A stretch of 64,000 nt of DNA from Halobacteriovorax sp. HLS (GTDB lineage Bacteria > Bdellovibrionota > Bacteriovoracia > Bacteriovoracales > Bacteriovoracaceae): contig NZ_QOCL01000009.1 of assembly GCF_004006665.1 (NCBI RefSeq), forward strand, positions 1 through 64,000, in the 5' to 3' direction. Made by a program: the position numbers and the translations under genes. The notes under the pieces are model-generated. The model did no database searches. It had not been told where the DNA came from and saw only the letters and a list, made by a program, of their open reading frames with translations. Positions 1,122 to 35,500 of this stretch are shown piece by piece (position 1 is the stretch's first letter; each line of letters opens with the position of its first letter).

Positions 1122-1123
1122 AG
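1102..1123 (+). repeat. 8-bp tandem duplication (ATGAAGTT) at the 3' end of the small acidic gene
   Basis: ATGAAGTT occurs at 1102-1109 and 1110-1117, followed by a partial third unit ATGAAG at 1118-1123. Eight is not a multiple of three, so gain or loss of a unit switches the reading frame between a 125-residue product and a longer one ending at 1180. This could be a slippage-type phase switch or simply a recent inactivating duplication. Confidence 0.75.
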
Positions 1124-1181
1124 GCCGTTATGGAGGCATTCAAGTTATCAGGTCCCCTGCTAGATAAGGAACTCGAGTAAG

Positions 1182-14600: not shown

Positions 14601-14979
14601 TATATTTCAATTTGGAAGAAACCTTCAATTCTTTTCAAGTACGTCTGAATTAAGAAAAGCAACATCAATCCAAATTGCAGAGCCTTTTGTTGATGACTCG
14701 ATTAATGATTTTCTAGACCTAGTTAAGATTACACTTAGACCAGTGGTTCAAGATGTTTATACAAGAATAGGAAAACTGCCAGAATGTCCTTTAGAGTTAC
14801 TGGGCCAGTCAGGAGAAGTTATTGGACAGGGCGAAATCGGTTGGAAGGAAAGTAAAATAGTCGTTCTAACTGATGAAGACATGGTTGATTTAGAAAAGTT
14901 TAAAGATGCCGAATGGACAGTCTTTACAGAGTTTGAAGCAAACTCTGAGCAAATAATTAAAAAACTAAGTGAGAAATAA
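8689..14979 (+). CDS. Giant DEAD-box helicase with DUF1998-type C-terminal region (DrmA/DrmB- or DruE-like)
   Basis: This 2096-residue protein begins with an SF2 motor: ATGTGSGKT at 97-105, DELH at 229-232, S-A-T-L-G, and a distant motif VI VGRAGRT at 1025-1031. Several Cys pairs occur between and after the motor lobes (C-N-D-C near 463, C-P-V-C, C-E-E-C, C-D-T-C, C-S-S-C). The DUF1998-type zinc cluster C-S-C...C-Y-R-C lies at 1594-1608, just after G-I-P-G-G-T-G-Y. The last 450 residues include an F-V-D-G-F-D-F-H strand reminiscent of a degenerate restriction-endonuclease fold. DISARM normally splits these parts between DrmA (helicase) and DrmB (DUF1998), while Druantia DruE keeps them together. 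The context favours DISARM. Confidence 0.78.
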   Translation: MIPTLLSSQVERGVKEFLESSFQITNEAFHPLVRNFVAQDENVFKGPYVSLKLPFKKGINKELYFQNILSTPFYPYLHQEKAFNRLVGDKPKSTVVATGTGSGKTKCFMLPVLDYCFRNRDKQGIKAILVYPMNALATDQAKELAKLISSNESLKNRVTAGVFVGGKNETPNKFMKDDELITDKETLRKSPPDILITNYKMLDMLMLRSKDYPIWRHNESDTLRYLVVDELHTFDGAQGSDLACLIRRLKSRLNISRGDLCCVGTSATLGSGEESKNELIRFSKEIFGEDFDSDSIIGESVQSRIEFFNEVDLNNDLKIPAINEHDLLVAEDEIGFAKLHYRKWFKDELDTENKDWPLLLSKSIKSHPLLNDILAALNGKTLGYKELIRLLEESFSYTKLESPQNILSSFLGLVSLAKVDIGECRAPFLHTRVQSWMRELRRMVASVDTKPQLKFSDDLTGNDLKRHLPVVCCNDCGYTGWGATKEKNSSVLEPGLSNFYQKYFANSTQAIFIFPWEERFSNNEELLPCYLHKESLSLYDGIPEDVENYVRVYPYQKLGKRKGGANFLRKDCPVCNSKESLIILGARAATLTSSLISQVFSSSYNTDKKLLTFSDSVQDASHRASYFEAKTYRQSLLMAIQQYVDNHGADLCLDELDANFSQKWIEKNGIDNYIATFLPADLFWLKEYSNFKKLVHKKDDIDTLLRIVKKRVSFEINCEYGLKARIGDSLEKAGASVAYIDRSKLDDFVSKYLIKYNNELGGFRDISKDKFYAFLLIFLKKMLVSGAVEHEDWFPYIENKGNPYLLGRKEHTKSFGPSSKLPSFLTNTKIDKFNLVLPTSKNGRTWCTERFFQHLSTTTSAVDFYNLFINDLVAEEILFQVEINQIKVWGIKSSVVKVTAEVSSHKCEECGHKISLPSLDDSIELTCLQLDCSGTYGKFNEQTSFYKKLYKNGQVQRVFAAEHTGLLERDARESLEKRFMNRKSLTDENLLSCTPTLEMGINIGDLSNVVLCSIPPRQANFIQRVGRAGRTTGSAYVATIANAKPHDLFFYDEPELMSNGAVRSPGIFLDAPEVLKRQYIAFVVDSWVNDNNGETGIPLKLNSVLSSFEARSENKFPYNFIAYHKEHRDQLLEKFFNVFDREVRDSSKQYIKEFVVGGDESSDSIGSLIIDGVEGIKKELDGYLKKVRSITQKIKSIKEAKDKDKNYLDQIKDLESEKKIYNELANTIKKKLMLNHLTDEGLLPNYAFPEQGVVLKSIIFRVVSKGDGERSLETDVFEYERAAATGIYELAPHSKFYANSRVVTVNQVNMSTATKEEWLFCDTCDHMEIYNPSDPVSSCPVCGSTGIRDKAQVKTLIKMRQMIATASDKDARALDKSEDRSSAFYSTNLFVDIDSKDVQKSYKVSDEKIPFGYEFVSKVALREVNFGSQGSGDELIKIGNKDYPVKGFILCSSCGRVADDSGEINHTKSCTARNKEKSAVEGVYLYRDFVSEGIKILLPVASFDITKSEQQTSVVQSFSAGLFLGLREKFKGDPGHLKITLFDEPDKLNPNTRRWYLLLYDGIPGGTGYLKDLMKSPQELMDVLELSLERLKSCSCNKEESKDGCYRCLYAYRERFNKLNTSRNLAIEILSQILTHRTGIEEIETIDTISLNTLIESELERSFVEVMADSIRRNNGSFEKGIVNGKNGWIAKINDFSYEVEPQVEIGWNEGIDSHMRADFVMWPKPLNKENQRKVGAQKLQPIVIFVDGFDFHPGGPGKHSRVGKDFEQRMALIDTDSSISLSKDSSYIVWSLSYDDVTDFKNGITQAVGLSNTNDYNKILKVYASKIPSLKKFQPYHNENSFSILMEFLANPNLNLWRAFCHITALSFFPNDIFTNEKEVEDFKDTLKRNEIGEDDISPSPVDDGSYKVSYNDFHGELDQPILRIFLNANKSEITSLGKIETIVRLYDDLEFKNEPSFKKYWEAFLKLHNIFQFGRNLQFFSSTSELRKATSIQIAEPFVDDSINDFLDLVKITLRPVVQDVYTRIGKLPECPLELLGQSGEVIGQGEIGWKESKIVVLTDEDMVDLEKFKDAEWTVFTEFEANSEQIIKKLSEK

Positions 14980-17100
14980 ATGGAAAACATTAAGATAGCG
15001 ATATCAGATGACTTTTTTACAGCATACTCCAAACTACCACAGGGGATACAGAAAAGAACTCGAGAGTTTATGGATAAGTTTCGATTTAACCCTAAGTCTC
15101 CAGGATTGAATTATGAAGTTATCAGAAATACAGCTTGTAAAGATTTGAGGTCTGTTAGGATTAATCAAGAGTATAGAGCTATCGTACTTGAACCGAGTGA
15201 AGGAAGTGTTTATTTATTACTTTGGGTTGATAAGCATGATGATGCTTATTCTTGGGCAATGAAAAAGAATATCCTTGTTAATTCATACACTGGAACTATT
15301 CAAATTTTAGATACAGAAGAGATAGAAAGGCTTACGCCCAAAAAGGAAGAGAAAGAGAAAAGGGATGACTTGTTCTCAGGGCTGAAAGACAAGCAATTAT
15401 TACGCCTTGGTGTTCCGGAACCCCTTGTACCCGCAATACGAGCAATAAAGACAGAGTCTGAGCTCGATACATTAATACCTCATTTACCCTCAGACGTTTC
15501 AGAAGTTTTATATTTACTAGCATCTGGTTACTCTGAAGAAGAAGTCCACTTAGAGTTGTTATCACAAAATGACGATGTTGATACTGAAGATTACTCGGCA
15601 GCACTGGATGTTGGTGCGACGCGAAAGAAATTTTATGTTGTGGAGGATGAATCAGAGTTGTTAAGCATGTTGAATGCTCCAATGGATAAGTGGAGAGTGT
15701 TTCTCCATCCATACCAAAGAAAGCTAGTTGAAATGAATGCTTCAGGCCCTGTTAGAGTTCTTGGCGGAGCTGGAACAGGTAAAACTGTTGTTGCAATACA
15801 TAGAGCTAAGCATTTGGCCGAAAATATCTTTAAGGATGAAAAACAAAAAATTCTCTTTACGACATTTACTAGGAATTTAGCAGCAGATATTGAAAATAAC
15901 CTTAGAAAAATTGCAAGTGCAGATGTGTGTAAAAAAATTGAAGTTGTTAGTGTTGATCAATGGGTTATGAACTTTTTAAAGAGAGAAGGATATAAGTTTA
16001 AACTTGTTTTTGATAACTCAAAGGAATGGAATGAAGCCTGGCAATGTGCTTTAAACGTTAAGGACCCTGAGTTAAACCTTTCCGATCAATTTTTTAAGGA
16101 TGAGTGGAAGCATATCATTCAAGCTAAAGATATAAAATCTTTTAATGAATACAGTAGAGTTCGAAGAATCGGCCGAGGGCAGAAAGTAGACAGAGCTACA
16201 AGAAAATTGGTTTGGGAAGTTTTTGAAGAGTACCGTGCAATCCTGGATGATAAGGGTTTGAAAGAAGTAAATGATTGTATCAACGACTCCTGTAACTTAC
16301 TGTCTTCCAAGGGAGATGTTTTACCGTATGCAGCTGTAATAGTTGATGAAGCCCAAGATATGAATGAACCAATGTTTAAGCTCGTTCGAGCAATATCTGG
16401 AGCTGAAGATAGAAGAAACAATATATTTATCGTAGGAGATGGACATCAAAAAATTTATAGCAATAAAGTTGTTTTAAGTCATTGTGGTATAAACATTAAG
16501 GGCCGTTCTAAGAAATTGAAGATTAACTATAGAACTACAGATGAAATTCGAAAATGGTCTGTATCACTCTTAGAGGATCGTAAAATTGATGATCTCGATG
16601 GGGGAGAGGACAATAATAGAGGCTATAAATCACTTATGTTTGGCTCTAACCCCACTATCGAAAAATTTCCGACATATGATGATGAAATTTATTATATAGC
16701 TAAATATATCAACGAGCTGCTAACTAGTGGTGTAACTCCTGATAAGATATGCCTAGTAGCACGTACAAATAGTATTGTGGAAGACTATAAGTTGTTTTTG
16801 GCTGACCAAGGACTTGAGATACATCAAATCCAAAGAAGAAGTTCTGAGGACTCCAAAGAAAGAGGAGTTAGGGTTGCTACTATTCACAGAGTTAAAGGTC
16901 TAGAGTTTGAGCATGTCATTATTTCTTCTGTTAATGACGGAGTAATACCTTTAGAGTTCTCTGAAGACGAAGCCGATACTCCGTTTGACTTAGTCGAAAA
17001 TGAAACTACTGAGCGTTCCTTGTTATACGTTGCTGCAACTCGAGCAAAGAAGAGTGTACTGATTACTAGTTACGGGAATCCAAGTAAGTTTTTGAGCTAG
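14980..17100 (+). CDS. RelE/ParE-like domain fused to a UvrD-type SF1 helicase
   Basis: The ATG follows the previous stop directly (TAA 14977-14979). Residues 1-95 look like a RelE/ParE toxin fold: an F-F-T-A-Y-S-K-L-P start, then helices, then L-R-S-V-R-I-N-Q-E-Y-R-A-I-V and L-L-W-V-D-K-H-D-D-A-Y-S-W. After a linker with a helix-hairpin-like patch, the UvrD motor carries GGAGTGKT at 262-269, DEAQD at 456-460, an A-T-I-H-R-V-K-G-L-E motif V and Y-V-A-A-T-R-A-K motif VI. At 706 residues it is of typical UvrD size. Such fusions are annotated simply as helicases, and the toxin-like domain may serve as an RNA/ribosome or protein contact. It occupies the place where DISARM has the PLD protein DrmC, so the operon is not a standard one. 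Confidence 0.75.
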   Translation: MENIKIAISDDFFTAYSKLPQGIQKRTREFMDKFRFNPKSPGLNYEVIRNTACKDLRSVRINQEYRAIVLEPSEGSVYLLLWVDKHDDAYSWAMKKNILVNSYTGTIQILDTEEIERLTPKKEEKEKRDDLFSGLKDKQLLRLGVPEPLVPAIRAIKTESELDTLIPHLPSDVSEVLYLLASGYSEEEVHLELLSQNDDVDTEDYSAALDVGATRKKFYVVEDESELLSMLNAPMDKWRVFLHPYQRKLVEMNASGPVRVLGGAGTGKTVVAIHRAKHLAENIFKDEKQKILFTTFTRNLAADIENNLRKIASADVCKKIEVVSVDQWVMNFLKREGYKFKLVFDNSKEWNEAWQCALNVKDPELNLSDQFFKDEWKHIIQAKDIKSFNEYSRVRRIGRGQKVDRATRKLVWEVFEEYRAILDDKGLKEVNDCINDSCNLLSSKGDVLPYAAVIVDEAQDMNEPMFKLVRAISGAEDRRNNIFIVGDGHQKIYSNKVVLSHCGINIKGRSKKLKINYRTTDEIRKWSVSLLEDRKIDDLDGGEDNNRGYKSLMFGSNPTIEKFPTYDDEIYYIAKYINELLTSGVTPDKICLVARTNSIVEDYKLFLADQGLEIHQIQRRSSEDSKERGVRVATIHRVKGLEFEHVIISSVNDGVIPLEFSEDEADTPFDLVENETTERSLLYVAATRAKKSVLITSYGNPSKFLS

Positions 17101-17143
17101 CAATGACGTTCAAATTAAGGAATTAGAGGGAATTGATTTAATA

Positions 17144-17554
17144 ATGAGTGATGTTAAAGAGTATCAAATCTTTCTAAAAGGCGAAGATAAAACTAATTGT
17201 GTTAGTCGATTCGAAAAAATAGGCAGTAAGTACAAAATAGTTTTTAACAGTGGCAAGGCATTTACTTACAATGCGAGAAACGTTCAGATAGTCGAGTCTG
17301 TTTTAAAACAAGAAAAACCCAGAGATGTTTTTGACTACTTAAGTAAAGTAGCGAACAAGGTCGGTTTAAAAGCTAAAGTAGGTGATGGGAAAGAAATAAA
17401 CATACTTTCTCATAATCTTTCTAAGTTAGGATTTATTGATAAAGACAGCTTACTGGGACACTTTTTATCCAAGAGTGGCCCGAATATTAAATCTCAATTG
17501 CTGAACCCGAAAGAACCCCAAAAAACCAAAAAAACACTAAAACATATCAATTAA
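17144..17554 (+). pseudogene. Last gene of the helicase/methylase operon, 3' part lost at repeat R1
   Basis: The ORF begins at ATG 17144, 43 bases after the UvrD gene, with a GAGGGA ribosome site. The first 118 residues look like genuine protein (F-L-K-G-E-D-K-T near the start, then an alternating strand pattern and a helical region), resembling the N-terminal module seen before larger ATPases. I do not recognise a complete family. From 17505 the frame runs into the 50-bp R1 repeat, whose translation supplies a low-complexity Lys/Pro/Thr tail ending in K-H-I-N-stop. The same tail ends an unrelated truncated ORF at 50479. I infer that the gene was cut by a rearrangement and only its head remains. 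Confidence 0.6.
17505..17554 (+). repeat. Repeat R1, left copy (50 bp)
   Basis: ACCCGAAAGAACCCC followed by an A-rich stretch and ACATATCAATTAAT. A nearly identical copy, with a few substitutions and a one-base shift in the A-rich part, lies at 50431-50480 in the same orientation. Each copy forms the end of a truncated, unrelated ORF, so R1 looks like the outer end of a mobile or rearranged segment. Confidence 0.85.
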
Positions 17555-20299: not shown

Positions 20300-20962
20300 C
20301 TAGCAGGATTGTTTTATATCCTTTTTGGCAAGTAACTTATCTTCAATGTGAGAGAATGTCTCTTTAAGTTTCTGTCGTTCATTTTCGTTATTACGTCCAT
20401 AAACAGAGTTGTAAGATGAACCCGTTGCATTGTAGGGCGGAAGTACTCCATATTTCAACAAGTGTCCTGATAGAATACTTTTTTCTAATGAAGAAATTTC
20501 TCTCTTATAGTCAGGAATCTTATTCTTTAGGTAGTCTAGAGGTATCATTATTAAAAAGGCTTTGTTACCTGTAAACGTTGGAGCATTCAGCTTGTTTATG
20601 CAGTCATGAATAAGAATGTCTCTAAAATACTGATCACTTTCTTCGCTCTTGTCTTTAATTTTACGTGCAAACTCGCATTCCTGATCTTTAGAAATATCAA
20701 AATCTAAAACCCAATACAATGAACTATGGTCAAATCCATATTGAGTTTTCTTATGGTATGATTTTTTTTGAAATTTCTTAAGATTATGCCTATTTGCAAA
20801 GCTATTAATTGTTTTTCCTACATATAAGATTCCTAGCTCATCTTCTCCATATAACTTTGATATTGTAGTAAAAGAGCATAGAATATAGATGCCAATTTGA
20901 TTCTCTATTCGTCTATTTGGCCAAAAATATAGCTCAACTTCGCTTAGGTAGTTATTTTTCAT
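20300..20962 (-). CDS. GIY-YIG nuclease-domain protein
   Basis: A well-placed GGAG precedes the ATG at 20962. Residues 24-27 (G-I-Y-I) and L-Y-V-G near residue 48 form the GIY/YVG pair, followed by K-T-I-N-S-F-A-N-R-H, where the catalytic Arg is expected, and later L-N-A-P-T-F-T-G-N-K. The 220-residue length gives a single nuclease module plus a C-terminal extension with no zinc finger or HTH. It is transcribed away from the AAA+/helicase operon, with 418 bp between them. It may be a standalone effector, or it may act with that operon. Confidence 0.7.
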   Translation of the reverse strand: MKNNYLSEVELYFWPNRRIENQIGIYILCSFTTISKLYGEDELGILYVGKTINSFANRHNLKKFQKKSYHKKTQYGFDHSSLYWVLDFDISKDQECEFARKIKDKSEESDQYFRDILIHDCINKLNAPTFTGNKAFLIMIPLDYLKNKIPDYKREISSLEKSILSGHLLKYGVLPPYNATGSSYNSVYGRNNENERQKLKETFSHIEDKLLAKKDIKQSC

Positions 20963-21380
20963 TTTTACTCCGATACAAATGAAGAACTATTGCTAGCAAT
21001 ATTATTGACTTCGATGATTAGACTTATCGTCGAATAATAGAAATCACTTTAATTTATTAGTCATTGAGAAATTTTCATAAAAATCCGCATTTTAACAGGA
21101 CATAGTGACAATCTTTGTCAATTTATTCTGTTAATCTAATTTGTATAGACTTGCAAAATATGATTAAGAATTAGACTAGAGAAGTAGTTTACTTAGTTAT
21201 AGTACAACTCTTAACAAGCTAGAATGAAGATCAGCTATCATTTTATGTGGTTATTTTCTTATAAACAATTTTCCAAAGTTTTCATGTTTTTTTTATTTTT
21301 TTTCCTTATTTATTTTCTTGTGACTAAAAATGTCACGTACTATTTATATGTTTGGTTTACTAATAAATTAGGAGTAAGTA
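20963..21380. promoter_or_regulatory. Divergent intergenic region with operator-like palindrome
   Basis: This 418-bp, T-rich spacer separates the GIY-YIG gene from the AAA+ gene. A perfect inverted repeat GTGAC-N7-GTCAC lies at 21320-21336, 45 bp before the AAA+ start, in the position of an operator. GGAG at 21370-21373 serves as the ribosome site. I see no ORF or RNA gene. Confidence 0.5.
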
Positions 21381-22184
21381 ATGGAGTATATTAGTACAAA
21401 TCTCAATAAAGCTGCATATGAAATTATCAAAAGTTTTCTTAATAATTCTGCTAACAAGTATTCTCATACCCTTACAGTTTATGGTGAATCGGGGAGTGGA
21501 AAGTCCTATCTATTAAATGATTTAGTGGAGAAACTCTCGAGAAAAATAAATATCAAGAATATCACGGCAATGAAATTGGTCCGTGAGTACATCAAGGCCT
21601 ACAAAGCAAATATTGTCGAAGATTTGAAAGATACATTTGTTAATGAGTATGATTGTATCGTAATTGATGATACCGAGTATTTAAAAAGAAAGCCAGGAGC
21701 TCAAGAGTTTTTAGTTGATCTAGTAGGAAGTGCATCACTTCTTGGTATCCGAATTATTTTTATCACATCTACTTTAGATGAGGGATGGTCTGATCCGAAG
21801 TTTTTCAATATCATTAGAGCTTCAACAAAAGTAAAGGTAAGTTCTCCAGATAAAAAGGAAAGAAAAGAGCTTCTGTTGGCTCATCTTGGAGACAATGCAA
21901 GTGAGCTGAAAGTTAAGGCTCTAAGTACAATGAGTGAGAGGAAGGTTGCTCTAAGCTCACTTATAGGTACTATTAAGTCGATGAAGAATAAAAGCGATGA
22001 GGAATTTTATAAATTATTTATCGATGAATATTGTATCGACGGAAAGTATGATGATAATTTGGGTCATTATACTAGTGAAGATATTCGTAGGCTTTTAACT
22101 AGAGTTAAATCTATAACGTATAAGGAAAAAAAATCAACTGACGAAGATTTTCTAGATAGGGTGTCTTCAATTGAGTTCTTTTAA
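21381..22184 (+). CDS. DnaA/Cdc6-like AAA+ ATPase
   Basis: This 267-residue protein has Walker A GESGSGKS at 35-42, Walker B IVIDD with Asp96-Asp97, then a sensor I-like F-I-T-S-T segment, the compact core of initiator/helicase-loader AAA+ proteins. The C-terminal 70 residues are Lys/Asp-rich with no clear DnaA domain IV HTH, so it is not a replication initiator in the usual sense. Two genes, a membrane protein and the helicase-amidoligase, follow in the same direction with short gaps. A role as a loader or regulator for that helicase is inferred from this context only. Confidence 0.65.
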   Translation: MEYISTNLNKAAYEIIKSFLNNSANKYSHTLTVYGESGSGKSYLLNDLVEKLSRKINIKNITAMKLVREYIKAYKANIVEDLKDTFVNEYDCIVIDDTEYLKRKPGAQEFLVDLVGSASLLGIRIIFITSTLDEGWSDPKFFNIIRASTKVKVSSPDKKERKELLLAHLGDNASELKVKALSTMSERKVALSSLIGTIKSMKNKSDEEFYKLFIDEYCIDGKYDDNLGHYTSEDIRRLLTRVKSITYKEKKSTDEDFLDRVSSIEFF

Positions 22185-22215: not shown

Positions 22216-22602
22216 ATGAATGAAGCCAATAGTTCTATTCAAAATAAGGCCAATAATTTAAGTTTCACAAAGAAAATGTTTATTTCTCTTATGTCAATAA
22301 TTGGCGGCTATGCACTAATCATGGTCGTAGGATTACCTTTTGTCTGGCTCTTCAGTCCACTTCCTGATTCGTATAAATTTATACCTCATGAAAACTTAAT
22401 ATATTCGAAGCTTGGAAATATATTCTTTATTCAGGCTGTTCTGATGACGATATTTTTAACTTCGGTTTTTCTTATTGGAGATCAATTAGAGATTAGCTAC
22501 GAGGAAATCTTAAAAGAGGTTCCTGTCTTTGAATTAACTTCTTTTTCTATAATAGTATTTATCATGGATATCATTAGCTTGATAGAAGTATTCAATCGTT
22601 GA
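22216..22602 (+). CDS. Small membrane protein, three predicted transmembrane segments
   Basis: The 128 residues contain three hydrophobic stretches: about residues 19-47 (M-F-I-S-L-M-S-I-I-G-G-Y through V-W-L-F), 67-92 (I-F-F-I-Q-A-V-L-M-T) and 104-127. A charged N-terminus precedes the first. I recognise no family. It lies between the AAA+ gene (31-bp gap) and the helicase-amidoligase (56-bp gap), which suggests a membrane partner or effector in the same system. Confidence 0.55.
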   Translation: MNEANSSIQNKANNLSFTKKMFISLMSIIGGYALIMVVGLPFVWLFSPLPDSYKFIPHENLIYSKLGNIFFIQAVLMTIFLTSVFLIGDQLEISYEEILKEVPVFELTSFSIIVFIMDIISLIEVFNR

Positions 22603-22658: not shown

Positions 22659-25520
22659 ATGAAACTAAAACAATTTCAAGAGGAAATATATAAATCCCTT
22701 AAAAAATCTTATAAAGAAAATGATAACTTAAGAACCTATTTGCACATGCCAACAGGTTCAGGAAAGACAGTTGTTGCTTCAATGTTCATATTAAATGAAT
22801 ATATTAGTAAGGGGGGGCATGTATTGTGGATTACTGACTCTTGGGCCTTGATTAATCAAGCGTATAAAACTATTAAATCAATTTCTGGAGAAACATTATG
22901 TGATGATCTTGATTTTGGTTTATGGATAAAGTATTTGAGTAAAAAAAATCATGAGATAGCAAATAACCTTGATAGCTTTAAACGAGATTATATTGTTGAT
23001 AATATGGACTGGATTCCTAAATTTTTGTTTTCGACGAATAGTACTCTCTCAAGAAGTTGTGAAAATAAAAGCTCTAAAGAATATGAAAAAATTATACATT
23101 TTAAACCAAGCATTATCGTCGTAGATGAAGCCCATAGAGGGAAGGGCGGAAAGCAAGAGGTTGAAATTTATGAGCTTTTAAATGGACCATGGAAGAATGT
23201 ACCAGTATTAGGGTTATCGGCAACACCAAAATTAAGGGAAATTAATGGCTGGGATTCAAGAATGAAAGTCGGTAATTATTCGTTTCGAGATCTCGTAGAA
23301 ATGGGGGAACTCGCGGAACCTATTCTTTTGAAAAGAAAAATTCAAGAGTCTGTTGAGTATAAACAGGATCGTAATGGTTTTCTGAATGAAGAAGAGTTGG
23401 CTGATGATAAAGTTAGAAATGATTCGATAATCGAAGATTATTTAAGGAACAAAAAGAACTATCGAAAAACAATGATTTTCGTTACAAATCAGATTCAGGC
23501 GAGTTACTTTGCTAAAGAACTATCGCATCATGGTGTCGAATGTTATTTGATTCACGGTAAGGTTAAAAACCCCTACAGAGTTTTGAAGAAATTTAAGGAA
23601 TCAAAGGGTCATGACTGCATAGCCATTGTTATTCGTATGGCAATTTGTGGAGTTGATATTCCTGACATTAACACTATTATTCTTGCTAAACCTGTGACTA
23701 GTGATATCGAGTTTTCACAAATGATTGGACGTGGAAGTCGTATGCATACTGATACAGGTAAGAAAACATTTAATGTTGTAGATTTTTATGGAAGCTTAGA
23801 GAGGGAAAGTCATTCTTTAAGCTTAACTCATTTTGTCGATTTTTATAATGGTTCGGGTAGAAATAGTGAGCTAGTAAGTAAAGGTGCTCTCAGAAAAAAG
23901 AAAGTACAGTACACAAAGCATGAATATATTGATGGGTATGGTCTAACAACTCTTAATTATGAGGAAAGTTCTAAGTACTTTGAGGCCCTTGATGGTTTAA
24001 GAATCTATAATGGGCAAACATTTGGTATCGAAATCGAGCTTAGCACAGGAGAAGTTGATGTTCATGATATATCTCATGATGAATGGACTGCAATAGCTAA
24101 TCAAATAATAAAAAAAATAATGGATGGTACGAACTATATCAATTTTGATCCAATTTCAGAGTATTCAGAACTTGGAAATATTAATCATGACGTATGGAAT
24201 ATAGTTTATGACGGATCTTGTGGGTTTGAAATTGTTTCTCGTATATTAAAAGGCCAAGAAGGGTTTGAAGAACTAGTGAATGTCGTAGGGCTCTTAAATA
24301 GTGAGTTCTTAGGGGAGTTGGGACTTAAAATCGATTATTCCACTGGGCTACATCTCAATCTAGGATGGAGAGATTTTTCTAAATCGAGTGTTCTTAATAT
24401 GATTAATTATATGAGAAATATAGAACCTGCACTAAACTCTCTTGTTTCTCCTAGTAGAGTCATTGTAAATGATAAAGCTTCTTTTTATTGCAAGTCTCTA
24501 AGAAGTATTTTTGACTCGAAAGATTTAAAAGAAACGAGCTACAATAAACTTTTAACAAAAATTGACAGTGATGATGGAAGATATATGTCATTTAACTTAC
24601 AAAATAGAGACGGGGATGGACAGAGGGTTGAGGTACGACTCCATAACGGGACAATTAGTACAAAAAAAATCTCTTTGTGGACCTCTTTGTTTATGAATAT
24701 CTTTGTAACTATTAACTCTAGACATACTATTCCCTTGAAAGAAGATTTGGACTTTCCTTCAGAAATTGGACTACCTCAGATAGGTACTCATGGTGATATT
24801 CTATATATCGCAGAAGAATACCTTGGCCTTTCTAGTAATCAGAAATTGTTAAATAAGCTAAATCAAAGAAGAAGAGAGTTACTAAATAGCAGTGCATGGA
24901 GAGAAATATTAGGTGACGAGGTAATAGATGAACTCCTACGTTATTGGGATAGCTCTAAGTCTATTGTTAATCTTAATGAAGTAAGGGAGTACAGTAACAT
25001 TTCTCTTTACGATAAAAATAGAATATTAACAAAACTTATTAAGACTAACGAGTTAAAAATACATCCTTCAAAACTTGATGAAAGAATATTTAGATCTAAA
25101 CTTTTTTGTATAATTGAGGATGAGGATATCTTATGTGCAGGAGTAAAGGAAGATAGCCCTAAGCTTTTAAGTGCAATTCTAAATTATTTTGAAAAAAAAA
25201 TAAGTCAATGCAATGACTCTTTTATTACTACCTTTATTGATGATATTAAAAATAATAACGCTTTCGAAAGAGGATGGTCAATGAATGCTTCTCGATCAAA
25301 TGACATAAATAAAGAGCGATGGAGAAAAATCAATTTAAGGGTTGATCAACTGTTACGCGAGGAAAAATATGCAACAGCTTCAATTTTTTCGTCAGTAAGT
25401 ATTGATAATAAAAAGGGGATGCAATATTTAAAAGAACAAGGTTTCCTAGAAATTATGACTATTCCAAGTCCCTGGAATAAAAATAAGAAGCTTAAAATAT
25501 TATTGAAAAAAAATCAATAA
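22659..25520 (+). CDS. SF2 helicase fused to a putative amidoligase domain
   Basis: Residues 1-430 form an SF2 motor of the type III restriction/UvsW kind: PTGSGKT at 31-37, DEAH at 156-159, G-L-S-A-T-P-K, and QMIGRGSR at 354-361. From about residue 450 the sequence changes to features of the Amidoligase_2 family: F-G-I-E-I-E at 455-460, G-F-E-I-V-S near 526, the S-T-G-L-H-L-N motif at 561-567, a Y-C-K segment, then R-V-E-V-R-L-H-N-G-T at 656-665 followed by W-T-S-L-F. Known members have a glutamine-synthetase/ATP-grasp-like fold and are predicted to form amide bonds. The last 220 residues are helical with no recognised domain. I know of no characterised protein with this pairing. The motor call is firm; the amidoligase call is strong by motif order but needs a profile search. 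Confidence 0.78.
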   Translation: MKLKQFQEEIYKSLKKSYKENDNLRTYLHMPTGSGKTVVASMFILNEYISKGGHVLWITDSWALINQAYKTIKSISGETLCDDLDFGLWIKYLSKKNHEIANNLDSFKRDYIVDNMDWIPKFLFSTNSTLSRSCENKSSKEYEKIIHFKPSIIVVDEAHRGKGGKQEVEIYELLNGPWKNVPVLGLSATPKLREINGWDSRMKVGNYSFRDLVEMGELAEPILLKRKIQESVEYKQDRNGFLNEEELADDKVRNDSIIEDYLRNKKNYRKTMIFVTNQIQASYFAKELSHHGVECYLIHGKVKNPYRVLKKFKESKGHDCIAIVIRMAICGVDIPDINTIILAKPVTSDIEFSQMIGRGSRMHTDTGKKTFNVVDFYGSLERESHSLSLTHFVDFYNGSGRNSELVSKGALRKKKVQYTKHEYIDGYGLTTLNYEESSKYFEALDGLRIYNGQTFGIEIELSTGEVDVHDISHDEWTAIANQIIKKIMDGTNYINFDPISEYSELGNINHDVWNIVYDGSCGFEIVSRILKGQEGFEELVNVVGLLNSEFLGELGLKIDYSTGLHLNLGWRDFSKSSVLNMINYMRNIEPALNSLVSPSRVIVNDKASFYCKSLRSIFDSKDLKETSYNKLLTKIDSDDGRYMSFNLQNRDGDGQRVEVRLHNGTISTKKISLWTSLFMNIFVTINSRHTIPLKEDLDFPSEIGLPQIGTHGDILYIAEEYLGLSSNQKLLNKLNQRRRELLNSSAWREILGDEVIDELLRYWDSSKSIVNLNEVREYSNISLYDKNRILTKLIKTNELKIHPSKLDERIFRSKLFCIIEDEDILCAGVKEDSPKLLSAILNYFEKKISQCNDSFITTFIDDIKNNNAFERGWSMNASRSNDINKERWRKINLRVDQLLREEKYATASIFSSVSIDNKKGMQYLKEQGFLEIMTIPSPWNKNKKLKILLKKNQ

Positions 25521-25531: not shown

Positions 25532-25562
25532 TCCTGCTTAATTACGAGTTAATTAAGCAGGA
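25532..25562 (+). terminator. Terminator-like hairpin after the helicase-amidoligase gene
   Basis: A perfect 13-bp stem (TCCTGCTTAATTA / TAATTAAGCAGGA) with a 5-base loop begins 12 bp after the stop codon. There is no long T run on the plus side; on the minus side T-rich sequence follows. It may end transcription from both directions. Confidence 0.6.
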
Positions 25563-25849: not shown

Positions 25850-26857
25850 TTAAGAAATATTCCTAATTCCAGACTCCCATATAGCTTTAACCTCATCATA
25901 AACTATTTTAGGAGTAATATTAAGAACATGGCCTCCAAATGAAGATATAAAACGAATTATCTCGGAACTGTCAGCGCATTTGAAGTTCAGAATATAATTT
26001 CCATTTCTAAGTTCATGTAATGTTTGACTTTGGTGTATCTTTTTTTCTTTAAAATATCCTGCCATTATCTCGTCGCATGTAATTTTTATTGAGATAGGTT
26101 TCTTTGTAATTCCAAAGCCTCCAACGTGAGACTTTAAATTTAGTTCTTCATTACGATTGAGTTCAGTAGCTTTCTTCTCTGTTAGATTCACATTTCTTAA
26201 TCTCGAAACTCTCAGGGTCTTTATTTTTTTATCCTCCTCATCTTTAACTACAAGGTAAGCAGTTCCAGAAGCTAGATTAAAAAGTATGGGGGAGAATTGC
26301 CTTAGTCTCTCATTGTAAGCCTTATCTTTATAGGGAGACTCATTAAAGCAGGTAAAGATTCTTTTTTCCCTAATTGCTACCATAATCATTTCGAAGTCAT
26401 ATAAATTTGTGTCTTCTGGTTTTCCTGATGAATTGAATCCAAAAAAGTACTTTGTTTTAGCATGTCTGAGTTCATCAGAGAGACTTTGATCTATATTAGA
26501 TAGAATAGCAGTTTCAGCTTCTGTTGCAAATTCATTGAAGTATTCATGAGATGTATGCTTTAGATTGTTTAGCGCAATCATTAGGACTTGGAGTGTATTT
26601 TCATTTAATTCGAGTTTATGTTTAAAATCTAAACTCTGCGAAATATAATATCTCTCAGGCCTATCCTCAGTAGAGAGCATCGCATGTACAAGAGAGAGTT
26701 CGTCAACATCTCTTCTAACTGTTCTTTCATTCACATAAATATCTTCGGACCTTAAGCGCGAGCATAGTTCACTAATAGATATAGCTGAGTCTTCATCTTT
26801 ATTCTTTAAATACTCAAAAAGAATATCTTGTCGTCTACCTTTTGAAATCTTCGCCAT
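25850..26857 (-). CDS. WYL-domain transcriptional regulator (WYL-1)
   Basis: This 335-residue protein has an N-terminal winged HTH (I-S-I-S-E-L-C-S-R-L, then E-R-T-V-R-R-D-V), a central region and a WYL-type domain around L-A-S-G-T-A-Y-L-V-V-K-D, with a C-terminal E-I-I-R-F-I-S-S-F-G-G-H module. WYL proteins are common repressors or sensors in defence islands and are thought to bind nucleic-acid ligands. It is a clear paralogue of the protein at 36328-37338, about half identical by eye. It is divergent from the AbiE operon and convergent with the helicase-amidoligase operon, so either could be its target. Confidence 0.82.
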   Translation of the reverse strand: MAKISKGRRQDILFEYLKNKDEDSAISISELCSRLRSEDIYVNERTVRRDVDELSLVHAMLSTEDRPERYYISQSLDFKHKLELNENTLQVLMIALNNLKHTSHEYFNEFATEAETAILSNIDQSLSDELRHAKTKYFFGFNSSGKPEDTNLYDFEMIMVAIREKRIFTCFNESPYKDKAYNERLRQFSPILFNLASGTAYLVVKDEEDKKIKTLRVSRLRNVNLTEKKATELNRNEELNLKSHVGGFGITKKPISIKITCDEIMAGYFKEKKIHQSQTLHELRNGNYILNFKCADSSEIIRFISSFGGHVLNITPKIVYDEVKAIWESGIRNIS

Positions 26858-27280: not shown

Positions 27281-28048
27281 GTGTCTAAAATAAACCAAAT
27301 GCTAATAGAGTGGGTAAAGGGTGATCTTCATTCACTTAAGTGGATGAAGAAGCGAGGTGTTCCTCAGAACTTGGCCTACCTTTATTATAAAAAAGGGTCT
27401 TTGGATAAAATAGGCCCTGGTATCTACAAAAGAAAAGGGGAGAGCGCTAGTTGGATGGGAGCAGTTCGACTTTTACAAGAAGAGCTGGGCAAAGCTTTAC
27501 ATGTTTCAGGTAGGACGGCTTTAGAGTTGAAGGGAGCTTCTCATTATACTCCAATGGGAAAAACTGCGAAAATATATTTGGCATCCTATGAGAAAGCGAA
27601 GCTACCAAAATGGCTATTAGAGAATGATTTTGGTTGTGAGTTTTCCTACCGAAGCTCGAAATTATTCACTAGAGAACTTGAGCTTTCTGAGTTCACTTCC
27701 CCATTAGGTTATAACCTAAAAATCTCAAGTAGAGAGTTGGCAGTTTTGGAGTTGATAGATCTATTGGATTTAAAGGACTCTTTTGAAACAGCAGAAAACT
27801 ATTTAAATGGCTTATCAGGATTAAGGGCTGATAAGTTGCAAATACTTCTAGAAAATTGTACTTCGATAAAGGTGAAGAGGGTCTTTTTATATTTATCCGA
27901 AAAAATAGGACATAATTATTTTCATAAATTAGACACTTCAAAAATAGAATTAGGAAAAGGTAAAAGGCAAATTGTAAAAACAAACTCTCAATTAGATAAA
28001 AAATATAAAATTACTGTACCAAGAGATTATGGGGAGAATCCATTTTGA
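27281..28048 (+). CDS. abiEi: AbiEi-family antitoxin
   Basis: The gene starts at GTG 27281 after GGAGTAG. The 255 residues begin with the winged-HTH N-terminus of type IV antitoxins (W-M-K-K-R-G-V-P-Q-N-L-A-Y-L-Y-Y-K-K-G-S-L-D-K-I-G-P-G-I-Y read in parts), followed by the AbiEi C-terminal domain that neutralises the toxin. The stop overlaps the toxin start by four bases (TTGA). In AbiE systems the antitoxin represses the operon, consistent with the palindromes upstream. Confidence 0.85.
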   Translation: MSKINQMLIEWVKGDLHSLKWMKKRGVPQNLAYLYYKKGSLDKIGPGIYKRKGESASWMGAVRLLQEELGKALHVSGRTALELKGASHYTPMGKTAKIYLASYEKAKLPKWLLENDFGCEFSYRSSKLFTRELELSEFTSPLGYNLKISSRELAVLELIDLLDLKDSFETAENYLNGLSGLRADKLQILLENCTSIKVKRVFLYLSEKIGHNYFHKLDTSKIELGKGKRQIVKTNSQLDKKYKITVPRDYGENPF

Positions 28049-28971
28049 AAGAAACTTATAAAAAACAAGTTCAACTTCTTCTGATGGTTTTAGAAACTAC
28101 TTTAAGCGATGAAAGATTTGCTCTTAAAGGAGGAACAGCAATTAATCTCTTTCATCGAAACTTTCCACGTTATTCAGTCGATATTGATTTAACTTATCTT
28201 CCTTTGGAGGATAGAGGTACAACTTTTGCTAATATGCACGAGATACTTAGAGATATTGAGAAGAAATTCAAGGAGGAATTTGGGCTTGATGTTACTAGCT
28301 CAAAGCCTCTTGATGGAAAATCAGAGACAAAATTATTTGTTTCAAATGCAGATGTTCAAATAAAAATAGAACCTAATTTTATTTTAAGAGGGAGCTTGTT
28401 TCCTGCAAAACAAACAAAATTATGTGAAAAAGCGAGTAACGAATTTGAAATGGAGATAAGTGTTAATTGTCTTAGCACTGAGGATGTTTACGGTGGGAAA
28501 ATCTGCGCTGCCCTTGATCGTCAACATCCAAGAGATTTGTTTGACGTCAAGTACTTGTTTGAAAATGAAGGAATAACTGAAGAGGTAAAGGACTCATTTA
28601 TTTTTTATCTTATTTCACATAATCGGCCGATCAATGAACTACTTAATCCAAATTTAAAAGATATTAGTGCAAGTTATGAGTCAGAGTTTAAAAGTATGGC
28701 CGAAGTAGAGGTTGAGTTAGCAGAGTTGATCAAAGTGAGAAAATTACTTATTTCAAAGGTTAGAGAGTCTCTTAATGAAAATGATATTGCGTTTATAAAA
28801 AGTTTTGTCTCGAATAAGCCGGACTGGAGTCTAGTAAATGATAGTAACGTTCAGAACTATCCGTCTGTGAAGTGGAAGCTATTAAATCAAGGGAAAATGG
28901 ATAAAAAGAAACAAGAGAAATATATCGAAGACATAGCAAGCCTGTTTGATACAAACTCAGAGGTAAAATAG
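28045..28971 (+). CDS. abiEii: AbiEii nucleotidyltransferase toxin
   Basis: The start is TTG at 28045, overlapping the antitoxin stop. The DNA polymerase beta-type active site is intact: K-G-G-T with Gly29-Gly30, then R-Y-S-V-D-I-D-L with Asp46 and Asp48, followed by the R-D-L-F-D-V-K motif typical of AbiEii. At 308 residues it is normal in length. Homologues transfer nucleotides, for example to the tRNA acceptor stem, and stop growth on phage infection. It forms a type IV toxin-antitoxin abortive-infection unit with the preceding gene. Confidence 0.88.
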   Translation: MKETYKKQVQLLLMVLETTLSDERFALKGGTAINLFHRNFPRYSVDIDLTYLPLEDRGTTFANMHEILRDIEKKFKEEFGLDVTSSKPLDGKSETKLFVSNADVQIKIEPNFILRGSLFPAKQTKLCEKASNEFEMEISVNCLSTEDVYGGKICAALDRQHPRDLFDVKYLFENEGITEEVKDSFIFYLISHNRPINELLNPNLKDISASYESEFKSMAEVEVELAELIKVRKLLISKVRESLNENDIAFIKSFVSNKPDWSLVNDSNVQNYPSVKWKLLNQGKMDKKKQEKYIEDIASLFDTNSEVK

Positions 28972-29519: not shown

Positions 29520-30806
29520 ATGAGTGTGATACCTAAATCGAGTGTTAGCTGGATAACATTAACCCCTGAAGATGTTCAGCAGGCCAGAGAGGTTATTAGA
29601 AATTTAGGAGGAGATTCTACTGTTGACTCTATCGGACTAGGCCTTCCTTTTGAGGTTATATCAGATATCTTTTTCCCCGGAACTTCAACACTGCACACAA
29701 GAATTAGATATCAAATTTTTGTTTCAGGTATCTTGTATAAGATGATTATAGATTCCACATCTAAATCCAAAAAGATAAAAGATCCGAAATATTTACTAGA
29801 TAAGTATGAACTTCAATTGCAGGATATTTTATTAAAAAATGATCCTGATGGTGGAGTTATTGGTAAAAAATCTCGAGAAAACTTAAAGTATTGGCCAAGT
29901 ATAATCTACTGGGGTGGTATAAATACACTAAAGTTTTTCAATGAGTCTGGTGTAAGTAAAGAAGATTTATATAAAGAAATCTTAGGCCAAGGTAATAATA
30001 CTGTTATTAATGATGATGGGGAAGTTGAAGGGGATGTTAAATCTGTTTTTAATTTTGATCATCAATTTGCAAATATTGTTCTTAATTTATTTGACGATGA
30101 TACATTTAAAGAAAATACCAACTTTGAATTAACTAAAGAAGAGGCTTTGTTTTACTTAAGCAAATTCAAAAATGTATCGGTTGGTGAGGACACACTAATG
30201 AATGAGTGGATTAACTCTTCATACAAAAAAATAAGAGTATATAGTGATTTTAATCAAATAGAACCTACCGGAAATAAAAAAGTAGACACCTTATTAGAAC
30301 AAGCAAAAAACTATTCAAAGTTCAGTATGGGGATTAACCATGCATATCGATGGGCTTTATGTAAGGAAGTGGCTAGAAGGTATCATGATCCAGAGCTTAA
30401 GGATGAGTGGACTCAACATCAATTAAATAATCAAAAATATTTTGAAAATTGGCTAGAAAGAAATGAAGAATTAAAACAATGGTCAATTACTCAATTGAAG
30501 TTTGCTGTCAAAGCTTATGATATCGATGACAAAGTTGATGGGAAGCTAATTGATATGTTTGATACATTCAAAGATTTATGGAACTCAGGCATTGATTCAC
30601 AGAAGTTTTTGGAAAGTTTTGAAAAAACAGTTAGAGAACAAGAAAAGCATAGAAGGGGAAATAGAAGTCATTTTATAGACCCTACTATGAGTATTCCTAA
30701 ACTGACACAGGGACAAGAGTCTGATTACCTATTTGACTTTCGTTTTTCCCAAGGCTTTAGGAATGCAAGAGATATTTTAAAAGCATTGGAGAAGAAAGGT
30801 GTTTAG
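29520..30806 (+). CDS. DUF6361-like protein, first gene of a PLD-helicase triad
   Basis: A GGAG site lies before ATG 29520. The 428-residue protein starts with S-W-I-T-L-T-P-E-D and has G-L-G-L-P-F-E-V-I-S-D-I-F-F-P-G-T-S-T in its first 65 residues, a pattern I associate with the DUF6361 family, often found next to phospholipase-D-like and helicase genes. No catalytic motif is visible; the rest is mainly helical. It overlaps the next gene by 8 bp, so the three genes are one translational unit. The role is probably sensor or adaptor in a defence complex, by context. Confidence 0.65.
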   Translation: MSVIPKSSVSWITLTPEDVQQAREVIRNLGGDSTVDSIGLGLPFEVISDIFFPGTSTLHTRIRYQIFVSGILYKMIIDSTSKSKKIKDPKYLLDKYELQLQDILLKNDPDGGVIGKKSRENLKYWPSIIYWGGINTLKFFNESGVSKEDLYKEILGQGNNTVINDDGEVEGDVKSVFNFDHQFANIVLNLFDDDTFKENTNFELTKEEALFYLSKFKNVSVGEDTLMNEWINSSYKKIRVYSDFNQIEPTGNKKVDTLLEQAKNYSKFSMGINHAYRWALCKEVARRYHDPELKDEWTQHQLNNQKYFENWLERNEELKQWSITQLKFAVKAYDIDDKVDGKLIDMFDTFKDLWNSGIDSQKFLESFEKTVREQEKHRRGNRSHFIDPTMSIPKLTQGQESDYLFDFRFSQGFRNARDILKALEKKGV

Positions 30807-32592
30807 TGAACTTAATAGAAAATCTTTCTTTGAAGAGATAAAAGCTCCTCATGGATATGAAATTGAATACTGTATTGGAACGACTTTCTCTATGGATTTA
30901 GAATGCTTAACACAAATGTGTATTGAAAGCTACAAAAGGCGTTTTATTGAAAAGGAAATAAGTGTATATGAAGCCATTGAGGCCATAGAGAATTTTTCTT
31001 CTAAATCATGTATTATTGTACAAAATTGTAGAATTAATGAATTACCAATTGAAGAAATTAGGAAGGACTCATCGAAAAAAGCAAAACTATATGTATTATT
31101 GGATTCTTGTGTTGAACAAGTTCCTCTTAAGGTCGCACAGAGTGCATTCCATCCAAAAGTATGGTTTGTTAAGTATACTGCACATGAAAAAGAAGAATCT
31201 TTTTGGAAATTGATCGTAATGAGTAAAAATCTAACGAAGTCTGTACATTGGGATATCTCATCTACGATGGTTGGCCAATTTTCAGAAAATAAAACTAAAA
31301 ATACTAAAATAAAGAACTTTTTTACTTACTTGTTAGAGGAGAGTTCAGCTAAGAACTCGAAAAAGAATTCAGAGCATCTAAAGCAGGCAATTGAAGAGCT
31401 GGATCATATTCAATTTTCAGATCCCCAGGGGCTTTCTGATGGAGAGTTTTACTTTAAATGGGGAAGTCTAGAAAAAGGTAAAAGTTTTAAAATAGATGAT
31501 TCCTATCAAAAAATAGTTGTTGTCAGTCCTTTTTTGTCAGAGTCAAGACTTTCTCAGTTGAATGAGCACCCCAATGCCTATTTAATTACAGGGAGAGCTG
31601 ACTTATCTAAAATTAAACCTTATGAAAAGCTTCATAAAAGAACGTATGTTGTTAATTCGTTAGATTTGGAATTACATGCGAAAATATATTTAGGGTTAAA
31701 TGATGAGTACACTGACTTATTCATAGGATCACAGAATTTTACAAATGCGGCTTGGTTTAATGAAAATGTTGAAGCAACAATTAATTACCATGCTCCAAAA
31801 AGTCACTATGATGCTTTTAAAAAAGCATTTATATTTCAAGATGAAAAAGCTAAAAAAGTACAAAATTGGTTAATTCCCTATGATAGTTATGTTTTTGATT
31901 CAGAATTAGAGTCGGAAAGTGAACTTACACAAATTAATGAAAGGAAACTTAGTTATGCCCAGCAGCTATTATCTACTTGTGAAGTAAAAATAAATGTTTC
32001 AAAAAAATCATGCTCAATTTCACTTGAGGGGAGTCTTGATGACTTTCCTGAAGAAGTAACTGGGAGCCTTAAGGTTATTGGTATCGATGATAAATTAGAA
32101 TTAAAATCCCTCTTTGCAAATAAGTTTGAGACATCTAACTATCAAAAGTCTGAAATAAGTTCTTTTGTTATTTTGAGACTAGAGCTTGATGGTCAGGTTA
32201 AGTCTTTTTGTACTGTTGCAATTACAAATATTCAAAGGGTTTCTAGAAATAAAAAAATCTTTAAGGAATTGATTAAAGATTGGGCATCTTTTTGGGAATA
32301 CCTTGGAGTTATTCTAGACATAGACACTGGTGGACCAAAGACCAAACTAAACAAGAATTCATCAAATAAAAGGACTGAAAATGTAATACCACTAAATCAT
32401 AATAGAGGAGTTCTTCCCAAATATATAGAACCTATTATGTTAGGGGGAGCAAATGATCCAGAATTGATAGAAAAGGTAGACCGAGCATTAGATGTGTTAC
32501 CAAAAGACAAAATTACTTCTGAGGTAGAAGAATTCTTAAAGTTCTGGACCCAATATAAGCTAGCATATGCGGAGTTTAAGAATCATGGTTAA
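30799..32592 (+). CDS. Phospholipase-D-like (HKD) nuclease-type protein
   Basis: The start is GTG 30799 inside the previous gene's end (8-bp overlap). The 597-residue protein has one clear HKD motif: H293-A-K295 followed by F-I-G-S-Q-N-F-T-N about 16 residues later. A possible earlier half-site lies around F-H-P-K-V-W-F and M-S-K-N-L-T (residues 115-140). PLD-like proteins of this kind act as DNA or RNA nucleases in defence (DISARM DrmC, Mokosh MkoB). It lies between DUF6361 and a helicase and is probably the effector nuclease of the triad. Confidence 0.75.
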   Translation: MFSELNRKSFFEEIKAPHGYEIEYCIGTTFSMDLECLTQMCIESYKRRFIEKEISVYEAIEAIENFSSKSCIIVQNCRINELPIEEIRKDSSKKAKLYVLLDSCVEQVPLKVAQSAFHPKVWFVKYTAHEKEESFWKLIVMSKNLTKSVHWDISSTMVGQFSENKTKNTKIKNFFTYLLEESSAKNSKKNSEHLKQAIEELDHIQFSDPQGLSDGEFYFKWGSLEKGKSFKIDDSYQKIVVVSPFLSESRLSQLNEHPNAYLITGRADLSKIKPYEKLHKRTYVVNSLDLELHAKIYLGLNDEYTDLFIGSQNFTNAAWFNENVEATINYHAPKSHYDAFKKAFIFQDEKAKKVQNWLIPYDSYVFDSELESESELTQINERKLSYAQQLLSTCEVKINVSKKSCSISLEGSLDDFPEEVTGSLKVIGIDDKLELKSLFANKFETSNYQKSEISSFVILRLELDGQVKSFCTVAITNIQRVSRNKKIFKELIKDWASFWEYLGVILDIDTGGPKTKLNKNSSNKRTENVIPLNHNRGVLPKYIEPIMLGGANDPELIEKVDRALDVLPKDKITSEVEEFLKFWTQYKLAYAEFKNHG

Positions 32593-35500
32593 GAAAACAT
32601 TTGCACCGACTAAATTTCAACAATGTACTGTTAATCAAGTTGTAGAAGAACTTTACAATAAGAATAAACAAGGACCTAAAAGGTTTCTTGTCGCAGATGA
32701 AGTGGGACTTGGAAAGACAATAATCGCTAAAAATGTTATTGATCATTTAAGAAGTGATAACAAGTCACATACAATAATTTATGTAAGTTCAAGTTTAGAT
32801 ATTACAAAGCAAAATAAATTCAAGTTAGCACAAAATCCAGATCTTGAAATCGTACAAGCTGACAGGATTAATCTTGTATATGAAGAGGGTTTAAAAAAAT
32901 CAAAAATCAAGATTATATCAATGACTCCTGGAACTTCACTGAACTTTGGAACAAGTTTAGGTCATCAGTACGAAAGAATTTATATGGCAGCGTTAATTCG
33001 ATTAATACTTGGGTTTAAGAATGAAAAACTTGCTCGTGTCTTTTGTGGAATGGCCAACGAAGATAATTTTTATAACCGTTTGGCCGATTATGAAATTACA
33101 AATCGATTATGTTCTAAACTTGAAGATAAAATAGTTAAGCGATGGCAAAATATACAATTAGAATCAGGTGAGTCGTTTAGGGATACTCTTAAGCGAAGTA
33201 ACCTAGACAAATCAGAGTGCAGAGAGCTTGTTAGAGCTATAAGAAAAGAAATGGCGATTGCTATTCTTGAAGATATAAATCCTGACTTAGTCATTTTTGA
33301 TGAGTTCCAAAAATTTAAGGACATCACAGAAATTGATTCTAATGGCCGTTTAAGTCATGAGTTAGGAAAAATACTTCTGGCACCTAAAATACCAGTATTA
33401 CTACTTTCAGCAACACCATATAAGTTGTATTCTGATGGACCTTTGAAAACATGGAATTCTATTAAAAATACAGATAACTACAATGATCTGGTAAGAACAT
33501 TTTGCTTTTTGACTGGAGATAATCAATTAGCAGCTGATATCGTTGGTGAAATAAAAGAATATGGTGAGAAGGTTAAAGATTTATCTAGTGATAATATACT
33601 GCAAATGCTAATGCAAAAGGAACAAATCCAAAAACATGTAATGGAATATATGTCTAGAGCAGAAAGGATTAACTTTGAAAATGACCAGAAGCCAATGATA
33701 AAAGACCATTTCTTATCCGAAAAGTTATCAGGCTATGATTTAACTAAAGAAAATATTTTAGAATTTATGAAAATCGCACAGAATGCAAGTTCACGTAAAA
33801 CTCTACTTACATACTGGAAGTCAGGTGTAAGTTCAATGAGTTATATGCATAACTATAAACTACTAGAAAATGCAATGCTAGAGAGTCAGAAAAAAACTAA
33901 GTGTATAAGTAAAGACAATTCATTGTACAGCTTGCTTAAAAAATCACCATCACAACACATTAAAATTAAATATTTATATAAAGAAGTATTTAAAGAAGGA
34001 CAAAACCTGGCCTACCTATGGCTCCCTCCTACTAATCCATATTATGAGGGAACAAGTATTTACTCTCAAGAAAAGATTGCTGAAAATAATCCACAAAAAG
34101 CATTAGTCTTTTCTAGTTGGGTTTTTGTACCCAAAATGGTCGCTTCTGAGCTTGGAGCTATGAAAGAGAATATTCTTAAAAAGGTAGCTAAAAATGTAAA
34201 TATTGAAGTCACTGGGCCTTCTTTTAGAAGATTATTATTTCCATCGACACTGTTGGCAAATTCGTTGTCTCACAAAGACTTTGTAGAGAGTAAATCATAT
34301 AAAGAACTAGTTAATATTGCTGCAAAACGAATAAGAAAAGTACTTGAGGAAAAATATTGCTTTGAACTATCTGAAAGTTATACGGGGAACTCTTCCTGGG
34401 AAATTATGCAATATACAGAATTTACAAATAATCCAGAGAAAATGAAGTTGTTCCATAATTACTGTAACGGAACGGATAGACATAGAAAAAGATGGCATTT
34501 AAATGCAGGAAAAAAGTCTGAAAGAGAAGCATTTAGTATAAAAACAAGCCTTTCAGATAATAATATTCCACTGAAATTTAATAAACGTACACTAGAGAGT
34601 TTAGCGAAAGCAGCAATTTCAAGTCCTGCGGTATGCTTTCTTAGGTCTATAGAGCATATGCGTGGAAAGAGACTGCCATTTAAACAATGGATGCAATTAG
34701 CAGCATTTGGAATGCATGACATTAGGACATTTATAAACAGGGAAGGGCATAGTGCTATTATTTCTAAGTATGGAAAAGGAAAAAATTCTGTCTCAAAAGC
34801 TGCGGATTATTTTAGAATTGGAAACTTTCAAGCTGTTGTAGATGAATATCTCTATCAAATATATTTGAATAAGTCAGAGGAAGGAACTGTCACCTTAATC
34901 AAAAAACTCGGGCAAATTTTTGGGCCAAATAGATCAAGATGTACTGTTAGAACATCAAGAAATAGAGAACATGATAGGGCCATTTCTAATGATCTTGTTT
35001 GCTGTTTTGGTGATGGAGCAGAAGAATCAAATTCTAGAGATTTAAATAGAGAAGCATTTAATTCACCTTTTTGGCCATTTGCACTTGCTACAACTTCAGT
35101 AGGGCAAGAAGGTTTAGACTTTCATTTATATTGTAATAGTATTTATCATTGGAACCTACCTACTAATCCGGTAGATTTTGAACAAAGAGAAGGAAGACTA
35201 AACCGTTTCAATTGCTTTATGGTCCGCAAAAATATTGTTGCAGATCAAAAGAACTTAGAGGTTTCATTAAAAGAAGGTGAAACAATTTGGGAGCATTACT
35301 TTGATAATGCAAGGAAGTTTTCTAATTTAAGTGATAGATATAATTTAGAAATGTCTCCAAATTGGATTTACACACCTGACTCAAACGAATATTTCAGGTT
35401 TAATAGACATATACTAGATCTTCCTTGTTCAAATGATAAAAATAAATATTTTCAACTTAAGAAAGATATTGAGCTTTATCGTTTAGCTATTGGCCAACCT

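Follow-up and report, generated by a model that had tools for sequence, protein, structure and literature searches.

Organization of the Locus

The analysed stretch of DNA, hereafter the window, comprises positions 1–64,000 of contig NZ_QOCL01000009.1 from Halobacteriovorax sp. HLS. It contains a gene for a 953-aa protein in which an SF2 helicase motor is followed by an amidoligase domain. The features of this gene and its immediate surroundings are listed below.

20300..20962, minus strand: divergent 220-aa ORF, GIY-YIG-like by eye only (GIY...YVGKT)
21319..21337, no strand assigned: palindrome TGTGAC-N7-GTCACG, possible operator, 44–62 bp before the AAA+ gene
21381..22184, plus strand: DnaA/DnaC-like AAA+ ATPase, 267 aa, possible operon partner (Pfam Bac_DnaA, 1.5e-11)
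22216..22602, plus strand: small membrane protein, 128 aa, possible operon partner (three hydrophobic stretches by eye)
22659..25520, plus strand: SF2 helicase–amidoligase fusion, 953 aa (ORF with Pfam, PHROG and NCBIfam matches)
22659..23858, plus strand: SF2 helicase motor, residues ~1–400 (ResIII 1–191, Helicase_C 257–362; motifs I, II, III, V and VI intact)
23988..24725, plus strand: Amidoligase_2/glutamine-synthetase-fold domain, residues ~444–689 (Pfam, structure model, invariant residues)
24726..25517, plus strand: C-terminal extension, residues ~690–953, mostly helical (modelled at low confidence with a mean pLDDT of 54)
25532..25562, called on the minus strand only: possible terminator, an inverted repeat of 13 pairs following the fusion gene
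25850..26857, minus strand: WYL-domain transcriptional regulator, convergent neighbour of the fusion gene

Both parts of the fusion protein are recognized above the curated Pfam cut-offs, the motor by ResIII (residues 1–191, 2.8e-20, 73 bits vs. 22.5) and Helicase_C (residues 257–362, 2.6e-11, 44 bits vs. 23.5), and the second domain by Amidoligase_2 (PF12224; residues 453–679, 1.1e-12, 48.8 bits vs. 22). The PHROG profiles give the same picture, with matches to the DNA helicase phrog_16 (1.4e-40) and the amidoligase phrog_2443 (6.2e-17). Motifs I, II, III, V, and VI stand in order (e.g., PTGSGKT at residues 31–37, DEAH at 156–159, LSATP at 186–190, QMIGRGSR at 354–361) and, together with the two helicase profile matches, place the motor in SF2; the amidoligase motifs are FGIEIE (455–460), DGSCGFEIVS (518–527), STGLH (561–565), and EVRLHNGT (658–665). 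Thus, the ORF, its coordinates, and the helicase and amidoligase motifs given in a preliminary description of this DNA, made from the sequence alone, are confirmed, and the profile search proposed there recovers PF12224. The matches of PADLOC models to the protein cover only the helicase part, being matches to other helicases, and leave the amidoligase part uncovered.

Fold and Active Site of the Amidoligase Domain

A model of the amidoligase domain, built with AF2 from an alignment of 56 sequences, has a mean pLDDT of ~87 over model residues 21–270, compared with only 32 for a structure model made without an alignment. According to Foldseek, the best PDB matches of the domain model are glutamine synthetases, a GshF-type protein, and YbdK, its PDB fold neighbours include glutamate–cysteine ligases (GCL), and its viral matches are amidoligases. 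VIA-align yields Z-scores up to 14.7 (rmsd 4.0 Å over 259 residues), middling values being common with this measure and the rows shown belonging nearly all to one superfamily. The reading of this region as an amidoligase hence stands up to structure prediction, which finds a GS/GCL/YbdK-like fold. A sequence search of the PDB with the family profile found no solved structure for the Amidoligase_2 family.

All residues invariant among the 56 aligned amidoligases, that is, G456, E458, E460, D518, E524, H565, R600, N646, E658, and W674, are kept in the window protein. We take E458/E460, H565, and E658-x-R660 to be equivalent to the metal and ATP ligands E129/E131, H269, and E357/R359 of Salmonella glutamine synthetase, respectively, an equivalence drawn from motif order rather than from residue-level structural mapping. 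One substitution, the second His of the H-x-H motif replaced by Asn (STGLHLN), could indicate a catalytically dead domain retained as a binding module for the helicase. We consider this highly improbable, as every invariant residue, including those of E-x-E, H, and E-x-R, is retained in the window protein, and the latter residues are kept in all four fusions described below. Judged from the sequence and the structure model, the protein is a genuine SF2-helicase/amidoligase fusion with an intact-looking glutamine-synthetase-like active site.

Homologous Fusions

We searched 369 genomes of the window's phylum with PF12224 and compared the resulting ORFs with the window protein. Among these, L024 (779 aa) and L020 (854 aa) can be aligned with it over both domains, and a third homologue, L034, was found by a genome-contig scan with the L024/L020 amidoligase alignment. 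The three homologues, two from Bdellovibrionota-type MAGs and one (L034) from a Geobacteraceae MAG, have the same helicase–amidoligase order, are 29–30% identical to the window protein, and score 49.6–56.1 bits with the Amidoligase_2 profile; residues of the window protein beyond ~775 have no counterpart in any of them. As the same domain order is seen in three homologues, the fusion is not a product of chance or misassembly; as far as the sequences tell, it is either old or has spread widely. In the MAG record the L034 reading frame is broken near Walker A (59–280 and 249–2324 in different frames), which may reflect a sequencing error or a broken gene.

The helicase domains of the four fusions lie on one side of a branch that separates them from seven phage helicases with support 99/98, the branches being long. 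The fusion recurs in four lineages with one helicase clade. It is rare, having been observed in at least three out of 369 genomes of the window's phylum and at least one out of 395 of L034's phylum, these counts being lower bounds because the genome-contig scan works with short patterns. No full-length match was found in phage or plasmid records, and the fusion was seen neither in viral contigs (three scans aimed at it) nor among 79 viral amidoligase ORFs of 161–460 aa. No relative was obtained in viral scans that used the entire C-terminal half or the queries A2 and A4, or when genome contigs were scanned directly with the window protein. The C-terminal half, searched against 290 relatives, matched only the window.

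Several candidates were rejected. Amidoligase ORFs of 600–1200 aa in the phylum, considered as possible fusions, are mostly secreted or lipoprotein-like (by eye) and carry no helicase; the second PF12224 match in the window's genome (C3) is such a large chain, again with no helicase, and L037 is a standalone amidoligase. Large secreted or lipoprotein-like Amidoligase_2 chains of 650–1200 aa (L023, L025, L026, and similar ones) are present in Bdellovibrionota-type genomes, several of them with an ATP-grasp-looking region.

Immediate Neighbours of the Fusion Gene

The AAA+, membrane protein, and fusion genes lie on the same strand, separated by gaps of 31 and 56 bp. An operon, as assumed in the preliminary description, is therefore plausible, but a promoter-like site is present in the second gap, between the membrane protein gene and the fusion gene (in the scan, the number of such sites did not exceed that in shuffled sequences). 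The Bac_DnaA match upholds the DnaA-like assignment of the ATPase; the 128-aa membrane protein has no confident family match in Pfam, PHROG, or NCBIfam. As to the suggested divergent nuclease, the GIY...YVGKT pattern is seen by eye, but the ORF has no Pfam match at E ≤ 1 and none in PADLOC, PHROG, or NCBIfam, and it is probably a separate unit. The palindrome GTGAC-N4..10-GTCAC occurs only once in the window and is present in five out of 100 shuffles. A second WYL-type regulator, assigned by resemblance only, is encoded at 36328–37338 on the minus strand; both WYL genes are situated just after a plus-strand gene cluster.

It had also been proposed that the GIY-YIG-like protein, the AAA+ ATPase, the membrane protein, and the fusion work as one unit. 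The short gaps between the three same-strand genes, the palindrome upstream of the AAA+ gene, and the possible terminator after the fusion gene would agree with such a four-gene system. The neighbourhood survey speaks against it: in readable DNA, the other three fusions lack the AAA+, membrane, and divergent GIY-YIG-like neighbours, the four-gene neighbourhood is not conserved, and because the window's AAA+ and membrane protein genes are missing there, the four-gene system is not supported. Moreover, AAA+ matches in 13 relatives fall mostly in DnaA-sized frames of 450–570 aa, the AAA+ relatives in the phylum being DnaA-like, and the divergent ORF lacks a GIY-YIG profile match. We thus regard a common function of the four genes as very doubtful. 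An unrelated GIY-YIG/RAMA gene lies ~1.2 kb upstream of L024.

Descent of the Helicase Motor

The motor of the fusion is probably of phage replication-helicase descent. Phage DNA helicases of phrog_16 resemble it in the helicase domain and occupy a neighbouring branch of the tree. Two of these, encoded by Pseudomonas phages YA3 and PS-1, are the closest phage helicases that stand alone. They are 31% and 29% identical to L034, respectively, over ~300 residues, and the gene of each adjoins a primase gene; unlike the fusion, these proteins of 495–497 aa are too short to hold both a helicase and an amidoligase. RadD and EcoAI-type HsdR motors are among the best curated NCBIfam matches, with scores far below the equivalog cut-offs (RadD, NF053632, 38.1 bits vs. 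720; HsdR, NF046051, 83.1 bits, motor only, vs. 550), so that the fusion is not assigned to either family. In broader terms, we place the motor with the replication/recombination helicases of phages and with RadD/HsdR-like translocases. The helicase encoded near the amidoligase of phage Kovu, considered as a pre-fusion pair, is of phrog_62 and unrelated to the motor of the fusion.

These data bear on an alternative in which the fusion is a phage-derived replication or recombination helicase–amidoligase module that serves a mobile element, for instance by modifying host or phage proteins, and was captured in islands via mobile-element traffic while being no defence effector. It would explain the phrog_16 match of the helicase domain, the primase genes next to the two phage helicases, the DUF5906/phage-primase-like gene directly following the L034 fusion, and the fact that standalone amidoligases are common in phages. 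On the other hand, phage and plasmid records and the three viral-contig scans aimed at the fusion yielded none, and two out of four fusions lie among defence genes; we find this alternative rather unlikely.

Defence Islands and Other Contexts

The contexts available for comparison come from four sequences, two of them at contig edges. Defence islands surround two out of four fusions, namely, those of the window and L024. The island of the window contains genes for a DrmD-like helicase, a type IIG-like methylase, a DruE-like helicase, a GajB-like UvrD protein, AbiEi, AbiEii, ZacA, and ZacB; the contig carrying L024 (L150) has matches to type IIG (3.8e-271), GajA (7e-219), and GajB (1e-133). No defence island is visible at the L020 and L034 fusions. 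The L020 fusion, encoded by the second ORF of its contig, overlaps a gene for a poly-gamma-glutamate hydrolase (Gamma_PGA_hydro, 5.4e-43), and is followed by housekeeping-like genes (assigned from sequence, Rsm22 alone being profile-tested).

Several gene clusters of the window can be outlined. A same-strand run at 744–17554 encodes the DrmD-like SNF2 helicase, the type IIG-like methylase (1546 aa), the DruE-like helicase (2096 aa), and the GajB-like UvrD protein, whose N-terminus is RelE-like by eye; the cluster resembles a DISARM/Druantia-type hybrid. The AbiEi (2.2e-70) and AbiEii (2.1e-109) pair is located at 27281–28971. At 29520–35902, matches to ZacA (3.8e-52) and ZacB (2.8e-91) precede a large helicase of the ResIII type that is probably ZacC, and the region is likely a full Zac system. 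Finally, an AddB/AddA-like pair (841 and 1039 aa, by eye) at 42989–50161 precedes a GIY-YIG gene (Pfam, 2.9e-4) and a 310-aa ORF with no Pfam match.

Standalone Amidoligases

Standalone Amidoligase_2 proteins of phages and bacteria have been described (Iyer et al., 2009, as cited in passages of PMC7824862, PMC11318856, and PMC10945688), the function of the phage proteins being presented as prediction or speculation (PMC11318856, PMC10945688). They resemble the fusion in the profile match, the glutamine-synthetase-like fold, and all invariant residues. The difference is that the phage amidoligases (the 79 viral ORFs) are free-standing, some of them near genes for gamma-glutamyl cyclotransferase (GGCT) or glutamine amidotransferase (GATase), whereas the fusion has an SF2 motor and no such partners.

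Since phage amidoligases adjoin GGCT and GATase genes, and the L020 fusion overlaps the Gamma_PGA_hydro gene, the bond made by the fusion would, by analogy, probably be of the gamma-glutamyl type. About a quarter of the 79 viral amidoligase loci have a GATase-like neighbour, a share obtained with weak probes and with no control set counted. A standalone amidoligase adjoins a ParA-like gene in records of a Phocaeicola plasmid and a gut phage (L067, L069), with conjugation-like genes also nearby in L069.

Proposed Function

We found no description of a helicase–amidoligase fusion in the open-access literature, where absence is no proof; this agrees with the earlier statement that no described system couples an amidoligase to a DNA or RNA motor. 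The explanation we favour, with a probability of roughly 45%, is that a single gene encodes an amide ligase coupled to a motor, and that this protein most likely acts as an effector against phages. We infer the following course of events: nucleic acid, foreign or from stalled replication, would be engaged by the SF2 motor and serve as the trigger; the fused glutamine-synthetase-fold domain would act as a ligase that links an amine with a carboxylate in a reaction dependent on ATP and metal; the bond, probably of gamma-glutamyl type, would be formed on a target that is either a protein or modified base encountered along the DNA or a free metabolite; and this ligation would block phage replication or the cell, giving the anti-phage outcome. 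Against the defence role stand the housekeeping-like genes after the L020 fusion, the phage-type primase gene after L034, and the fact that no PADLOC model describes the fusion; further, as an island holds many systems, its context is weak guilt by association for any single gene.

The type IIG methylase genes near two fusions, and the presence of motor and ligase in one chain, may also be read as DNA-base modification, with the motor opening the duplex and the amidoligase attaching an amine or amino acid to a base of the DNA, be it foreign or self. However, the type IIG genes of both the window and L150 belong to other apparent units, and genes that would prepare a base, such as base-oxidising or deazaguanine genes, were not noticed next to the fusions. 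The evidence is weak in both directions, and we consider this option distinctly unlikely.

Returning to the motor-coupled ligase, the fusion to a nucleic-acid motor ties amidoligase chemistry to DNA or RNA, and the two defence islands link it to phage conflict, both questions being approachable with one gene. The fusion hints at a possible use of amide ligation as a weapon or as a mark on invading DNA; if this is true, amide ligation would join the repertoire of immune effectors. Tentatively, and as a possibility that we would not yet call probable, the fusion could represent an undescribed class of defence effectors whose glutamine-synthetase-fold ligase, triggered or aimed by a motor translocating on DNA, would stop phages through amide (possibly gamma-glutamyl) conjugation instead of cutting.

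Hachiman, Gabija, Druantia, and DISARM are anti-phage systems that combine a helicase with an effector. Like systems of these types, the fusion lies in a defence island and has a helicase motor linked to an enzyme; their effectors, however, are mostly nucleases or methylases, whereas the fusion carries a glutamine-synthetase-fold ligase.
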